Below, piece after piece: positions 36,961 through 43,150 of a stretch of DNA of 64,000 bases. Below the pieces are notes generated by a model. It did no database searches, was not told the DNA's origin, and saw only the letters and a list, made by a program, of their open reading frames with translations. Source of the stretch: Streptomyces alboniger (GTDB lineage: Bacteria > Actinomycetota > Actinomycetes > Streptomycetales > Streptomycetaceae); assembly GCF_008704395.1 (NCBI RefSeq), contig NZ_CP023695.1, positions 434,001-498,000 of the forward strand, written 5' to 3'. Position 1 is the stretch's first letter. Each line of letters starts with the position of its first letter. The position numbers and the translations under genes were made by a program.

Positions 36961-37650
36961 ATGGGAAGAGGCCGCGAAGGGGCGGGCAGGGGCCGCCCGA
37001 GCAGACCGGTGCTGAGCGCCGGCCTGATCGCGCGTGAGGCGCTTGCCATGATCGACACCGAGGGCGCAGACGCGTTCAGCCTGCCGCGGCTCGCCGGCCG
37101 GCTCGGTGTGAAGGCCGCCTCGCTGTACAACCACTTGGACGGCCGCGCCGCCGTCATCGAGAGCGTGCGACGCCTGGTCGTCGAGGAGATCGACGTCTCC
37201 GTGTTCGCCGTGCTGCCCTGGCCCGACGCTCTGGCCGCGTGGGCGCGTTCGTACCGCGACGCGTTCGCGCGCCACCCGCACGCCATCGATCTCCTCGTCA
37301 CGACGACGATCGGTTCCCCGGCGATGCTCGCGATGTACGAGTCGGTGGTGGAGGCGCTGGCCCGCGGCGGCTGGCCGCCCGGGCGCCTGGTGACGGTCCT
37401 GACGAGCGTGGAGTCCTTCGTGCTCGGCTCCGCGCTCGACCTCGTCGCGCCCCCGCCGATGATCGACCCCTCGGGCCGCGCGCCGCGGGTGCCGGCCCTC
37501 GCCGCCGCGCTGCACGCCGCGCCCGAGCACGACAAGGCGGCGCGCGCGGAGCAGGCGTTCGCCTCCGGCCTCCAGGCGTTGGTGCGCGGGCTCGTGGCGC
37601 AGCTCGCGGAAGTTCGCACCTCCGATGCGGCGGGCCGGCAGCCCGGGTGA
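36961..37650 (+). CDS. TetR family transcriptional regulator
   Basis: A 229-residue regulator. The N-terminal HTH spans LIAREALAMIDTEGADAFSL and PRLAGRLGVKAASLYNHLDG, with the YNHLDGR turn typical of TetR (YxHxxxK/R). The C-terminal ligand domain is TetR_C-like. It is divergent from the APC permease-amidohydrolase pair with a perfect 15-bp palindrome between them, so it presumably represses them until the transported substrate binds. GGAGG lies only 2-3 bases before the ATG at 36961. An upstream ATG at 36949 or downstream alternatives are possible, but the HTH position is unaffected. Confidence 0.87.
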   Translation: MGRGREGAGRGRPSRPVLSAGLIAREALAMIDTEGADAFSLPRLAGRLGVKAASLYNHLDGRAAVIESVRRLVVEEIDVSVFAVLPWPDALAAWARSYRDAFARHPHAIDLLVTTTIGSPAMLAMYESVVEALARGGWPPGRLVTVLTSVESFVLGSALDLVAPPPMIDPSGRAPRVPALAAALHAAPEHDKAARAEQAFASGLQALVRGLVAQLAEVRTSDAAGRQPG

Positions 37651-38062: not shown

Positions 38063-38173
38063 ATGAAGAAGGCCTACGAAGCGCCGGCGCTCATCCGACT
38101 CGGGACGTTCCGGAAGAAGACCGGGCTGCTGGCGCGGAACGGAAACGACCGACTCATTTTCAGCAAGAACTGA
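38063..38173 (+). CDS. Lasso peptide precursor, citrulassin family
   Basis: A 36-codon gene with GAGGAG 6-7 bases before its ATG. The leader is 21 residues and has the RRE-recognition pattern YxxPxL (Tyr5, Pro8, Leu10; YEAPALIRLG). Thr20 is at the -2 position, the invariant lasso leader residue, so cleavage is expected after Gly21. The core is LLARNGNDRLIFSKN (15 residues). Leu1 would be joined to the side chain of Asp8 to form an 8-residue macrolactam ring, leaving the tail RLIFSKN threaded. As I recall, citrulassin A is LLGLAGNDRLVLSKN, so GNDRL and SKN are shared and positions 3-5, 11 and 12 differ. Calculated neutral monoisotopic mass of the lactam is 1711.95 Da. Arg9 is the residue converted to citrulline in citrulassin A. 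Confidence 0.95.
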   Translation: MKKAYEAPALIRLGTFRKKTGLLARNGNDRLIFSKN

Positions 38174-38199
38174 CGACCGGAGGTTTCTGACCGAACGTC

Positions 38200-40038
38200 A
38201 TGACTGAACTGCACGAGAGTGCGGGGACGGGCCCCGGCGACGCGCACTTCACGGTCTTCAACGACCGTGCGGACGCGGCCGCCGTGGCCCGCTCCTTCGC
38301 CCACCCAGGAACACGTGTCCTCAACCATTCCTCGGGCCGGCCGTGGCTGGTCGGCCAGTGGGCCGACGAAGAGATCGTCACGGCGCGCGTCGGCCGCACC
38401 GCCCTGGCCGTCATCGGCTGCTGCCCCGTCACCGCCGCCGAACTGGAGGCCCGGGCAGGGCGGTTGCGCGATCTGGCGGAGCTGGACGTGTGGGCCCGCT
38501 CCCTGCCCGGCAGCTTCCACCTCGTCGCCGCCCTGGACCAGCGACTCAGGATGCAGGGCACCGCGTCCGGGCTCCGGCTGGTCTTCCACGCCATCGTGGA
38601 CGGTGTGCCCGTGGCCGCCACCCGCGCCGATGTCCTCGCCGCCGCCCTGGGCCACGACCCCGACGAAGAACAGCTCGCGATCCGGCTGTTGTGGCCGGCC
38701 CCCTATCCCCTTTTCGAGACCTCCCTCTGGTACGGCGTCACCGCGGTGCCACCACAGGACGCGCTGATCGTCGGCGCGGACGGGCGGACCGTGCACCACT
38801 CACGGTGGTGGACCCCGCCGGAGCCGGTCCGCACCCTCGCCGACGGGGCGCCGCTGGTCCGCGAGGCCCTCGCCACAGCCATCGACGCCCGCACGCGCCA
38901 AGGCGGCGTGGTCAGCTGCGACCTGTCCGGCGGCCTGGACTCCACCTCCATCTGCTTCCTCGCGGACCGGTCCCCCGCCAAGGTGGTGGCCAGCACCTGG
39001 CCGGGACGCGACCCGGCCGACACCGACCTGCACTGGGCCGAGCAGGCGGTGAAACACCTGCCGGACGTCGAGCACGTGGTGTGGGACGCTCACGCCTCAC
39101 CGCTGGTCTACGACGATCTGCTGAACATCGACGACCTGCTGGACGAACCGACCATCGGCGTCATGGACCGCTCAAGGGTGCTGAGCCATCTGCCGGACAT
39201 GGCCCGGCGGGGCAGCCGAGTGCACATGACGGGCATCGGCGGCGATCACGTGGCCTGGTGCTCGGAGGCGTACTACCACCGACTGTCGCGCACCCGCCCG
39301 CTGTTCGCGCTGCGGCAACTGCGTGGCTTCCGGGCCCTGTGGCAGTGGCCGCTCGGTACGACGGCCCGTGCCCTGGCCGATTCCCGGCCATACGGCAGGT
39401 GTCTCGCCGACGCCGTCGGACACCTGCGCGACCCGCTCCCGGCATCGGCCACCACCAGTCTCGGCTGGGGCATGCCCCCACGTCTCTTCGAGTGGGTCAC
39501 GCCCGACGCCACACGCATGGTCGAGCGGGCGCTGCGGGAGGCCGCTTCGACGGTCGTGCCCCTGCACCCCGACCGTGGCATGCACGCCGATCTGGAACAG
39601 ATCCGCTCGTGCACGCGCATCATCCGCCAGTGGGACCGCATGGCGGCCCGCGTCGGTGTCCCGATGGCCTCGCCGTTCCTCGACGACCGCGTCATCGAGG
39701 CGTGCCTCGCGATCCGGCCCGAGGAACGCGTCACGCCCTGGGCGTACAAGCCCGTGCTCACCGCCGCGATGCACGGCATCGTGCCCGAGGCGTGTCTGCG
39801 GCGCACCACCAAGGCCGCGGCCGCCATGGACGCCGCCGACGGACTGCGCAGGCACCGCGCCGACCTGCTGGCCCTGTGGGAGGACTCCAGGCTGGAACAG
39901 CTCGGCCTGGTCGACGGTGAGGCGCTGCGCCGCCTCGCGCAGCGGCCCTCCGCGCCCGGGCTGCGCGACGGCATCCTCTACTCGACCATCGCCGCCGAGG
40001 TATGGCTTCGCGGCCTCTCCCCCGCCCCTACCCGATAG
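38200..40038 (+). CDS. Lasso cyclase, asparagine synthetase-like (protein C)
   Basis: A 612-residue ATP-dependent macrolactam synthetase. It adenylates the Asp8 side chain of the cleaved core and lets the Leu1 amine attack. The N-terminal third is a degenerate glutaminase-like domain. The ATP-pyrophosphatase P-loop is CDLSGGLDSTSICFL, with Ser243-Gly-Gly-Leu-Asp-Ser. TGIGGDHVAW and later RVGVPMASPFLDDRVIEACL are further asparagine-synthase motifs. The ATG at 38200 is 26 bases after the precursor stop; an in-frame stop sits 12 bases upstream, so it is the only sensible start, although its GGAGG is 16 bases away. First enzyme gene of the cluster A-C-E-B-D. Confidence 0.95.
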   Translation: MTELHESAGTGPGDAHFTVFNDRADAAAVARSFAHPGTRVLNHSSGRPWLVGQWADEEIVTARVGRTALAVIGCCPVTAAELEARAGRLRDLAELDVWARSLPGSFHLVAALDQRLRMQGTASGLRLVFHAIVDGVPVAATRADVLAAALGHDPDEEQLAIRLLWPAPYPLFETSLWYGVTAVPPQDALIVGADGRTVHHSRWWTPPEPVRTLADGAPLVREALATAIDARTRQGGVVSCDLSGGLDSTSICFLADRSPAKVVASTWPGRDPADTDLHWAEQAVKHLPDVEHVVWDAHASPLVYDDLLNIDDLLDEPTIGVMDRSRVLSHLPDMARRGSRVHMTGIGGDHVAWCSEAYYHRLSRTRPLFALRQLRGFRALWQWPLGTTARALADSRPYGRCLADAVGHLRDPLPASATTSLGWGMPPRLFEWVTPDATRMVERALREAASTVVPLHPDRGMHADLEQIRSCTRIIRQWDRMAARVGVPMASPFLDDRVIEACLAIRPEERVTPWAYKPVLTAAMHGIVPEACLRRTTKAAAAMDAADGLRRHRADLLALWEDSRLEQLGLVDGEALRRLAQRPSAPGLRDGILYSTIAAEVWLRGLSPAPTR

Positions 40039-40069
40039 GCCCGCCACCGAAGAAAGGCAGTCACCCACC

Positions 40070-40324
40070 ATGGCACTGCGGTTCGGCCCCGATGTCTCCA
40101 CCACGGAGACCGACTACGGCACGGTTCTGCTGGACCAGCGCAGCGGAAACTACTGGGAACTCAATCCCACCGGGACCCTCGTCGTGAAGACCCTCCTCGA
40201 CGGCGGCGAGGAGGCGGCGGCCGTCGACGCGCTCGTCACGGAGTTCGACATCGACCGGCCCCGCGCGGAGCAGGACGTCACGGCTCTCGTACGGGAACTG
40301 CGGGAGTCGGGGCTGGCCTCATGA
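40070..40324 (+). CDS. Lasso RiPP recognition element protein (PqqD-like, B1/E protein)
   Basis: An 84-residue stand-alone RRE. PqqD-like features are visible: DYGTVLLDQRSGNYWELNPTG (beta hairpin with the YxLNxTG-type turn) followed by helices VVKTLLDGGEEAAAVDAL and AEQDVTALVRELRESGL. It binds the precursor leader through the YxxPxL motif and presents it to the peptidase. AGAAAGG lies upstream of the ATG at 40070. Its stop overlaps the peptidase start by 4 bases (ATGA). Confidence 0.93.
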   Translation: MALRFGPDVSTTETDYGTVLLDQRSGNYWELNPTGTLVVKTLLDGGEEAAAVDALVTEFDIDRPRAEQDVTALVRELRESGLAS

Positions 40325-40773
40325 CGACACCGAGCGCCCTGGAACGGCCCTCGAACGTTCCCTTCACCCGGCGTCTGGCCGCCCGGCTCGTCCTGCTGCC
40401 CGCCGTCGTGCTCTCCTCGCTGTCGCCGCGCCGGATCCGCGCCGTCCTCGATGTCGTACGCCGCGGAGCCGCCCCGGCCACCGCCGCGCAGGCGAGAAAC
40501 GCCCGGGACGCTATGTGCGCGACCAGCCTCCTCTGCGCCGGCCCGCAAGGCTGCCTGCCCCGCTCGCTGGGCGCCGCCCTGTTGTGCCGGCTGACGGGCA
40601 GTTGGCCCACGTGGTGCACGGGGGCGAGCGTGGTGCCTCCCTTCAACGCGCACGCGTGGATCGAGGCGGAGGGCCGGCCCATCGGCGAGGACGCGCCCGA
40701 CGACTACTTCGCACGGCTGCTCACGGTGGAGCCCCGGACCGCGAACCGCCCGCCCCGCCAGCCCCGCCCATGA
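40321..40773 (+). CDS. Lasso leader peptidase (transglutaminase-like, B2/B protein)
   Basis: A 150-residue cysteine protease of the lasso B family that removes the leader after Thr-Gly. The catalytic Cys is probably Cys78 in QGCLPRSLGAALLCRL, and His is His111 in FNAHAWIEAEGRPIGE, the conserved HAWxE motif. The N-terminal 60 residues are helical and basic, as in other split B2 proteins that dock the RRE partner. Coupled by 4-base ATGA overlaps to both the RRE gene upstream and the transporter downstream. Confidence 0.93.
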   Translation: MTTPSALERPSNVPFTRRLAARLVLLPAVVLSSLSPRRIRAVLDVVRRGAAPATAAQARNARDAMCATSLLCAGPQGCLPRSLGAALLCRLTGSWPTWCTGASVVPPFNAHAWIEAEGRPIGEDAPDDYFARLLTVEPRTANRPPRQPRP

Positions 40774-42599
40774 CGGACTCCCGGACGCAGGAGCCGGACC
40801 GGTCACCACAGGAGTCGGACCGCTCGACCCGGGCGGCGGTCGCCACCATGTACCGGCTCACCACAGGACACCGGCCCTCCATCCTCGTGGCCACCGCGCT
40901 GACCCTCGTCGGCTCCGTGCTCGGGCTCGCCCAGCCCCTCGTCGCCAAGGAGATCGTGGACGCGGGCGACCGAGGACAGTCGTTCTGGCCCCTGCTGATC
41001 CTCCTGGCCGTGCTGTTCATCAGCGAAGCCGCCACCGGCGCGACCGGCCGCTTCGTCCTGGAACGCATGGGCGAAAGAGTCGTACGGCAACTCCGCCACG
41101 GCCTCGTCGCACGACTGCTGCGGCTGGAGATGCGGGAGTACGACCGCCATCGCACCGGCGACCTGATCTCCCGCGTGACCACCGACACCACCCTGCTCAG
41201 GGAAGTGGTCTCCCAAGCCCTGGTCGACCTCGTCACGGGAGCCCTCGTCGCAGCCGGAGCGATCGCCTTGATGATGTGGATCGACCCGCTGCTGCTCGTC
41301 CTGGTCGCCCTGACCGTGGCCACCGCCGCCGCCGTCGTGGCCTCCCTGCTGAAGGGCATCCGTGCCGCCTCCGAGCACATGCAGACTTCCGTCGGCGCGA
41401 TCGCCGCCGACCTCGAGCGCGCGCTCGGAGCCCTGCCCATGGTCCGCGTCCACCGTGCCGAGGACCGCGAGGCACGGCGCGTCGGCGAACGGATCGACTC
41501 CGCCCACGACGCGGGGGTCCGGACCGCGAAGCTCGCGTCCGTGATGAGCCCGGCGGTCGAGCTGGCCGTCCAGGGTTCCTTCCTGCTCGTCCTGGTCATC
41601 GGCGGCCTGCGGGTCACCGGCCACGCCAACTCCCTCGGCGACCTCGTGGCCTTCCTGCTGTACGCCTCCTACCTCGTCCTGCCCCTGTCGTCGGTCTTCA
41701 ACGCGGTCGGCCTGATCCAGCGTGGCATGGGTGCCTACCAGCGCATCGAACAAGCCCTGGACCTGCCCGTGGAGCCCACGCACCCCGGCCACCCGCAGGT
41801 GCGGGCGCGTACGTGCGAGGCGCCCCCGCAAGCCCCTTCGCACGAGGAGCCCGCCCTCGCCCTGCGGGACCTCACCTTCGGCTACGAACCCGGTCGGCCG
41901 GTGCTGAGCGGCGTCACCTTCCCTGTCCCCCACCGGAGCCAGACGGCCCTGGTCGGCCGGTCGGGTGCCGGGAAGAGCACAGTCTTCGCTCTGGTGGCCA
42001 GGTTCTACGAACCGGACTCCGGAGTGCTCCTTTTCGACGGGCGGCCCGCCACCGAACTGACCCGCGCGGAATGCCGCGAACGGATCGCCGTGGTCGATCA
42101 GAACACCCACGTCGTCCACGGCACCCTGCGCGACAACATCACCTACGCCGCGCCCGACGCCAGCGACGCCGAGGTGCGGCGCGTCATCGAACTCGCGCAA
42201 CTCGACGATGTCGTACGGCGGTTGCCGGGCGGTCTGGCCGGTCTGCTCGGCGACCGCGGCAACACCCTCTCGGGGGGCGAGCGCCAGCGAGTCGCCCTGG
42301 CCCGCGCCCTGCTCGCCCGCCCCGGACTGCTCCTGCTCGACGAGCCGACCTCCCACCTCGACGCGATCAACGAGACCGCCCTCACCACGGTGATGAAGGA
42401 CGTCGCGCGTGAATGCGCCCTGCTGGTGATCGCGCACCGGCTCTCCACCGTGCAGCACGCCGACCAGATCGTCGTCCTTGACGACGGTCGCGCCACCGCT
42501 CGCGGAGGTCACGAGGAACTGCTCGCCGGCAGCTCGCTGTACCGCGAACTGGCGGCGGGGCAGATGCTCCCCGGCCGCCGGCCAAGGGTGAACCCGTAG
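40770..42599 (+). CDS. ABC transporter, fused permease-ATPase (lasso D protein)
   Basis: A 609-residue half-transporter with an N-terminal six-helix exporter domain (first helix near ATALTLVGSVLGLAQPLVA) and a C-terminal nucleotide-binding domain. Walker A is GRSGAGKST, the Q-loop VVDQNTHVVHG, the signature TLSGGERQRVALARAL, Walker B LLLLDEPTSHLD, and the H-loop VIAHRLS. It should form a homodimer that exports the mature lasso peptide and gives self-resistance. The ATG at 40770 overlaps the peptidase stop. It is the last gene of the cluster; the next gene (terB) has its own operator. Confidence 0.94.
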   Translation: MTDSRTQEPDRSPQESDRSTRAAVATMYRLTTGHRPSILVATALTLVGSVLGLAQPLVAKEIVDAGDRGQSFWPLLILLAVLFISEAATGATGRFVLERMGERVVRQLRHGLVARLLRLEMREYDRHRTGDLISRVTTDTTLLREVVSQALVDLVTGALVAAGAIALMMWIDPLLLVLVALTVATAAAVVASLLKGIRAASEHMQTSVGAIAADLERALGALPMVRVHRAEDREARRVGERIDSAHDAGVRTAKLASVMSPAVELAVQGSFLLVLVIGGLRVTGHANSLGDLVAFLLYASYLVLPLSSVFNAVGLIQRGMGAYQRIEQALDLPVEPTHPGHPQVRARTCEAPPQAPSHEEPALALRDLTFGYEPGRPVLSGVTFPVPHRSQTALVGRSGAGKSTVFALVARFYEPDSGVLLFDGRPATELTRAECRERIAVVDQNTHVVHGTLRDNITYAAPDASDAEVRRVIELAQLDDVVRRLPGGLAGLLGDRGNTLSGGERQRVALARALLARPGLLLLDEPTSHLDAINETALTTVMKDVARECALLVIAHRLSTVQHADQIVVLDDGRATARGGHEELLAGSSLYRELAAGQMLPGRRPRVNP

Positions 42600-42621: not shown

Positions 42622-42659
42622 TGTAGTTTCTACAGCAGTGTAGTTTCTACACTGCTGTA
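42622..42659. promoter_or_regulatory. BlaI-type operator cluster upstream of terB
   Basis: TGTAGTTTCTACA occurs twice (42622-42634 and 42639-42651). This creates the interlocked dyads TACAGCAGTGTA (42631-42642) and TACACTGCTGTA (42648-42659). The 20-mer TACAGCAGTGTAGTTTCTAC (42631-42650) matches the blaI/terD box at 44619 at every position except the spacer bases. BlaI/CopY-type repressors bind TACA-TGTA dyads, so the adjacent blaI product is the likely binder. Confidence 0.7.
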
Positions 42660-42694
42660 GAAACTGATTCATCGATACGTTTATGGAGTTCTCC

Positions 42695-43150
42695 ATGGCC
42701 CTGTGGGACCGCGTCAAGGAATCCGCATCGACGATGCAGACCCAGCTGATGGCGAAGAAGAACGACCTCAAGAGCGGCGCTTTCCGCGACGCGAGCATGG
42801 CCATGTGTGCCTTGGTCGCGGCCGCCGACGGCACCGTGGACCCGTCCGAGCGCCACCGCGTGGCCCAGCTCATCGGCTCGAACGAGGTGTTGCAGAACTT
42901 CCCGGCGGACGACCTGCGCCGCCGCTTCGACGCCTATGTCGACAAGCTGACCGCCGACTTCGCCTTCGGCAAGGTGAGCGTCCTCCAGGAGGTCGCCAAG
43001 GCGAAGAAGAAGCCCGCGGAGGCCCGCGCGGTCATCCAGATAGGCATCGTCATCGGCGGCGCCGACGGCGACTTCGACAAGGACGAGCAGGCCGTGGTGC
43101 GCGAAGCGTGCTTCGCGCTCGAACTGCCCCCGCACGAGTTCGACCTCTAG
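42695..43150 (+). CDS. TerB family (tellurite resistance/stress) protein
   Basis: A 151-residue helical protein matching the usual TerB length. MALWDRVKESASTMQTQLMAKKNDLKSG begins it (in pieces), followed by MCALVAAADGTVDPSERHRV and GGADGDFDKDEQAVVREACF. The last two are paired acidic, EF-hand-like metal-binding segments. TerB takes part in membrane-associated stress complexes with TerC/TerD. GGAG lies 6 bases before the ATG at 42695; an ATG at 42683 is less likely. A cluster of BlaI-type dyads sits 36-73 bases upstream. It converges on the M56 gene with a 20-base gap. Confidence 0.9.
   Translation: MALWDRVKESASTMQTQLMAKKNDLKSGAFRDASMAMCALVAAADGTVDPSERHRVAQLIGSNEVLQNFPADDLRRRFDAYVDKLTADFAFGKVSVLQEVAKAKKKPAEARAVIQIGIVIGGADGDFDKDEQAVVREACFALELPPHEFDL

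Follow-up and report, generated by a model that had tools for sequence, protein, structure and literature searches.

What does the lasso peptide gene set at 38063-42599 of the window (the whole 64,000-nucleotide stretch analysed here, G000:C1:434001-498000) make, and where is its product finished? The window belongs to a Streptomyces alboniger genome consisting of one contig of 7,962,786 bases. Citrulassins, the lasso peptide family to which the core sequence points, carry citrulline at position 9, and the available text of two reviews (PMC9266682, PMC8498205) attributes this residue to a peptidylarginine deiminase (PAD) encoded away from the cluster.

The citrulassin cluster and its core

A preliminary description of this DNA had proposed five lasso genes, and all five were found on the same (+) strand, with matches to lasso-type families. 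The precursor gene A (38063..38173; 36 aa, translation MKKAYEAPALIRLGTFRKKTGLLARNGNDRLIFSKN) scored above cut-off against both PF19397 (51.7 bits) and the lasso leader model NF033521 (25.2 bits), so it is not a chance open reading frame. The asparagine-synthetase-like lasso cyclase C (38200..40038, 612 aa; PF00733, 170 bits) is clearly an Asn_synthase-family protein, and it reached 253.8 bits, below the cut-off of 300, against its nearest NCBIfam model, the macrolactam cyclase NF033561. The remaining genes encode the RRE or PqqD-like leader-binding protein B1 (40070..40324, 84 aa; PF05402, and 119 bits to NF033530 lasso_PqqD_Strm, cut-off 70), the transglutaminase-like leader peptidase B2 (40321..40773, 150 aa; PF13471, 87 bits, and 104.5 bits to NF033537 lasso_biosyn_B2, cut-off 33) and the ABC exporter D (40770..42599, 609 aa; PF00664 and PF00005, both above cut-off). 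The ATGA overlaps described between the last three genes were located at 40321 (B1/B2) and 40770 (B2/D).

Residues 1-21 of the precursor form the leader and residues 22-36 the core, LLARNGNDRLIFSKN. As had been reported, the leader contains YEAPAL, an instance of YxxPxL, and Thr at position -2, which together we take to be the lasso leader motif. With such a leader, and with cyclase, RRE and B2 genes alongside the precursor, the set has the make-up of a class II lasso cluster, and the core has the citrulassin form xxxxxGNDRLxxSKN with Asp8 and the conserved Arg9. The earlier prediction of a citrulassin-type product with a Leu1-Asp8 ring and a 7-residue tail is thus supported by the sequence. 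Overall, the five-gene set is a real, complete and ordinary member of the well-described citrulassin family. Its completeness extends to the five core genes but not to the family-defining tailoring PAD, which is encoded approximately 262 kb away on the minus strand (G000:C1:208,167-210,116). Likewise, the 36-codon length of the precursor had been counted correctly but is nothing special, as it is the norm of the family: for most Streptomyces precursors among 80 related loci (of at least 119), a start codon gives exactly 36 residues.

The related loci were collected by a motif scan for GNDRLxx(S)KN in one genome per species, which returned at least 119 stretches. The 119 matches listed contained 65 different cores and none identical to LLARNGNDRLIFSKN, in a collection that may leave out records of the window's own genome; GNDRL and KN are common to all the matches listed because the search pattern required them. 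A cyclase homologue was located downstream of the precursor and on its strand at 76 of the 80 loci, and three of the other four end within 850 bases. Homologues of B1, B2 and D were present on the precursor's strand at 57, 56 and 50 of the 80 loci, respectively. All of these counts are lower bounds, as many loci end ahead of the later genes. At one locus (L036, Saccharothrix sp. NRRL B-16348), an exporter match directly follows the citrulassin precursor, in the place of the cyclase, and no cyclase match was detected in the examined stretch.

The citrulassin A core given in the preliminary description, LLGLAGNDRLVLSKN, is present in contig L017 of its producer, NRRL B-3066 (S. albulus / noursei). 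The two systems share the leader type, a 36-aa precursor, the GNDRL and SKN elements of the core, the gene order A, C, B1, B2 and a PF03068 PAD elsewhere in the genome. However, the cores differ at positions 3, 4, 5, 11 and 12, exactly as had been noted, and an exporter match was not found within the examined L017 stretch. Citrulassin N from Streptomyces sp. NAX00255, for which the accessible text of PMC12971885 describes Cit9 as established by NMR and MS/MS, agrees in its GNDRLI.SKN frame and in the sizes of the ring (8 residues) and tail (7 residues), but has a different core, LLQSSGNDRLILSKN.

The core had been described as a variant of that of citrulassin A, but it is not a new one. When the literature was searched in full text for this core, a single paper was returned. 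Table 1 of this paper (PMC12971885) lists LLARNGNDRLIFSKN as a prediction for S. alboniger CGMCC 4.1695, the same species under another culture-collection number, and marks its PAD with Y. For S. alboniger, this core has thus already been predicted in print. According to the same portion, 15 PAD-positive strains were fermented, by its table including CGMCC 4.1695, and a prominent ion is named for Streptomyces sp. NAX00255 alone. No product from S. alboniger is reported there, nor have we seen an isolation report of the LLARNGNDRLIFSKN peptide; the cluster may thus be silent in those media. To the printed core, the present analysis adds its locus and exact genome, the identification of the tailoring enzyme by strain status and the claim that this enzyme acts outside the cytoplasm.

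Identity and distribution of the deiminase

A profile search of the S. alboniger genome returned one PF03068 protein and two PF04371 proteins. The former, an animal-type PAD (403 bits to PF03068), shares 60% identity with the PAD of the citrulassin A producer B-3066 (614 aligned positions). Four residues, Asp281, His406, Asp408 and Cys633, which are presumably the catalytic residues as in human PAD4, showed no variation in any of the 28 PADs compared, the alignment being composed of frames of at least 580 aa, with the PADs of L224-L235 outside it. This assignment follows an alignment of human PAD4 with the S. alboniger PAD, in which all four are intact. The PF03068 domain, conserved catalytic residues and a triple-histidine motif are also features of the fungal/actinobacterial PADI clade, as described in the accessible part of PMC8826395, in the main text of which the words lasso, secret- and signal peptide are absent. 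A protein of the BLIP family (PF07467, 43.8 bits) is encoded close to the PAD gene (L223 8480-9229, G000:C1).

The presence of the two deiminase families was compared with what has been published on PAD or citrulline in 12 named strains, which were selected manually from the names attached to the 119 loci listed. Two of the status labels are product-based and come from one of the two reviews: B-3066 makes citrulassin A (positive), and S. katrae B-16271 makes des-citrulassin D (negative). The other ten are BLAST results with the probe WP_064069847.1, as given in the accessible table of PMC12971885, which marks Amycolatopsis xylanica, Lentzea (there Lechevalieria) xinjiangensis and S. aureocirculatus as positive and NRRL S-337, S. 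natalensis, Prauserella shujinwangii, S. cinerochromogenes, S. calvus, Longimycelium tulufanense and Amycolatopsis arida (there Yuhushiella; same CGMCC number) as negative. For five of the 12 (natalensis, xylanica, aureocirculatus, cinerochromogenes and calvus), our genome is from a different deposit of the species than the paper's, with identical cores. PF03068 was present in all four positive strains and in none of the eight negative strains, in agreement with the published status in 12 of 12 cases. PF04371 was found in 3/4 positive and 6/8 negative or des-citrulassin strains, agreed with the status in only 5 of 12 cases and was rejected as the family of the citrulassin PAD. Judging by this strain match, the published probe is presumably itself a PF03068 protein. 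Streptomyces torulosus (L090) also has PF03068; it was kept outside the 12-strain count, as the accessible review text is ambiguous on which of two species carries citrulline.

Because the same genome encodes the tailoring PAD at another site, citrulline is expected at position 9 of the main product, the conserved Arg9 being the predicted site of citrullination. The computed [M+H]+ of this Cit9 product is 1713.9395, which is 0.984 Da above the Arg form; the doubly charged ions are computed at 857.4734 (Cit9) and 856.9814 (Arg9). A hand calculation puts the Arg form's 13C peak about 19 mDa above the monoisotopic Cit9 peak, so that telling them apart takes MS/MS or a resolving power of roughly 90,000 or more. 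The preliminary description had named the unmodified lactam as the product, with a mass of about 1712.96; the mass is confirmed by our recomputed value (1712.9555), while the choice of product probably does not hold, and a search at m/z 1712.96 would detect solely the unmodified form. The same mass script gave 820.9519 (2+) for Cit9 citrulassin N, identical to the calculated value published in the accessible portion of PMC12971885. The second Arg of the core, Arg4, could also be a PAD target; with two citrullines, the [M+H]+ would be 1714.9235.

PF03068 was found in 36 of the 113 searched citrulassin genomes besides the window's (26/76 and 10/37), one of the 26 (G015) having its PAD in pieces only; L012, L048 and L097 lie outside this count, as do L060 and L084, whose genomes were already counted, and L129, which shares its contig with L125. 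Across 392 Streptomyces genomes, 66 had a PF03068 match (63 beyond fragments), 49 had a precursor match (convincing in 45) and 17 had both, with fragment-only genomes (G180, G365, G394) scored as PAD-negative and weak or leader-only precursor matches (G138, G295, G332, G353) as precursor-negative. PADs were more common in genomes with a precursor (17/45, 38%) than in those lacking one (46/347, 13%; odds ratio 4.0, Fisher P = 1.3e-4). The association persisted when the window's genome was left out (P = 3.2e-4) and when only the main PAD clade was considered (14/45 versus 40/347, P = 0.001), all in statistics that ignore phylogeny. Of the 63 PAD carriers, 46 have no precursor, and 28 of the 45 precursor carriers have no PAD. 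The former number indicates that the PAD does not serve lasso biosynthesis exclusively; other substrates or roles are to be expected.

With regard to the PF04371 family, S. alboniger encodes an agmatine-deiminase-like member with a twin-arginine and lipobox signal (L009, G000:C1:2430298-2434275), which has relatives of up to 82% identity in some citrulassin genomes. The genome of Amycolatopsis xylanica (G031, with locus L042) encodes two PF03068 PADs and five PF04371 proteins, of which four lie in a region of approximately 14 kb.

Export signal of the PAD and place of deimination

The S. alboniger PAD starts with MRPHRWRNVTLATGVAGILAATGATAIADSG, which is made up of a basic stretch, then a hydrophobic one and finally small residues. 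Export-type N-termini were scored by a home-made hydrophobicity rule rather than by a trained predictor such as SignalP; the rule calls for a start codon, a net-positive region and then a 12-residue stretch of mean hydropathy of at least 1.9, and the S. alboniger PAD scored 1.97. The rule was applied to 40 full-length PAD frames of citrulassin genomes, retrieved with the S. alboniger PAD as query (E up to 1e-20) and no shorter than 580 aa, a set to which the PAD fragments of G015, G063 and G076 do not belong; 39 of the 40 had such an N-terminus. The single failing frame, L206, is situated at a contig end, so that its start is missing. None of 68 cyclases passed the rule, and 5 of 58 PF04371 frames did, with several more having Tat-like starts just below the threshold. 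The PAD of L204 is lipoprotein-like, and those of L218 and L232 have possible membrane anchors rather than cleaved signals; if they are lipoproteins or anchored proteins, they would still be located outside the cytoplasm. The N-terminal sequence varies between PAD subclades while its architecture is constant, which points to function. Taken together, the export-type N-termini suggest that deimination is probably extracytoplasmic and follows export of the lasso peptide.

The timing of citrulline formation is called unknown in the available text of the reviews PMC9266682 and PMC8498205. Deimination ahead of threading is described in PMC12971885 as a proposal, and the accessible portion of that paper presents no test of the order of the two steps. 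The words secret-, signal peptide and extracellular are absent from the main texts of PMC8498205 and PMC12971885, and PMC9266682 uses extracellular once, in describing how the ABC exporter transports mature lasso peptides. Secretion of the PAD or a signal peptide is unmentioned in these three papers, a comparison that excludes the primary paper (Harris et al. 2020). According to PMC8826395, actinobacterial PADs show partial conservation of the calcium-binding sites, as would befit an enzyme working outside the cell.

In the pathway that we propose, B1 would bind the leader of the precursor, B2 would cleave the precursor after Thr-Gly, C would join Leu1 to Asp8 round the threaded tail and D would export the resulting 15-residue lasso; the secreted PF03068 PAD would then deiminate Arg9 outside the cytoplasm to yield a Cit9 citrulassin. 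From these sequences we infer the lasso topology, Arg9 as the site and the placement of deimination after export, and we consider it very probable that the S. alboniger cluster and PAD cooperate in this manner. An exported PAD would meet the peptide only after its release by the ABC exporter, so the substrate would most likely be the completed lasso peptide, in which Arg9 is the first residue beyond the ring. It also appears likely that citrulassin is finished outside the cytoplasm, the lasso being exported with Arg9 and the citrulline being made by a general secreted, probably calcium-using host PAD. Such a host enzyme, as opposed to a cluster enzyme, would explain why the pad gene is found apart from the cluster.

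Alternatively, the PAD could be cytoplasmic and modify either the precursor or the not yet threaded peptide, with its signal-like N-terminus unused. This would be in line with the order put forward in PMC12971885, as far as its available text goes; however, the basic N-terminus and the hydrophobic stretch behind it are retained in all PAD frames but one despite their varied sequence, and we regard cytoplasmic deimination as unlikely. The product could also be the unmodified Arg9 lactam (des-citrulassin), with the PAD gene unrelated or silent. The many PAD carriers without a precursor, in which the enzyme must have other uses, are consistent with this, as is the lack of linkage between pad and the cluster. 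In contrast, one of the two reviews states that all citrulassin-producing strains except one have pad, that the Arg form is made by strains without it and that an added pad converts a des-citrulassin D producer; the full agreement of PF03068 with strain status likewise argues for modification, which makes an unmodified product improbable. A PF04371 protein, either L009 (Tat-lipoprotein type) or L010 (cytoplasmic type), would be another candidate for deiminating the peptide. The family includes Porphyromonas-type PADs, going by its name and a solved structure so labelled, and L009 has a lipobox-type signal, but the occurrence of PF04371 in most PAD-negative or des-citrulassin strains and its absence from one PAD-positive strain make its involvement barely credible.

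If citrulassins are indeed finished by a secreted PAD, the enzyme of one strain could modify the lasso peptide of a neighbour, and mixing alone could suffice to convert PAD-negative producers. In our view, such extracellular finishing would be unusual for RiPPs. A prediction from the export-type N-termini is that purified des-citrulassin should be converted on exposure to supernatant from cultures of a PAD-positive strain.

Flanking genes

A TetR-type regulator (PF02909, 49.8 bits) is encoded upstream of the cluster at 36961-37650; the 80 related loci, which in some cases have little upstream sequence, contained no match to it. Directly downstream of the cluster is the gene for a TerB-family protein (PF05099, 98.9 bits; 42683-43150). 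There was no match to it at the 80 related loci, many of which end ahead of that point, and this gene is therefore probably not part of the cluster. Between the exporter and the TerB-like gene, a perfect 19-base inverted repeat with a 3-base spacer and tandem GTGTAGTTTCTACA units is located at 42625-42665, which looks like a repressor operator.
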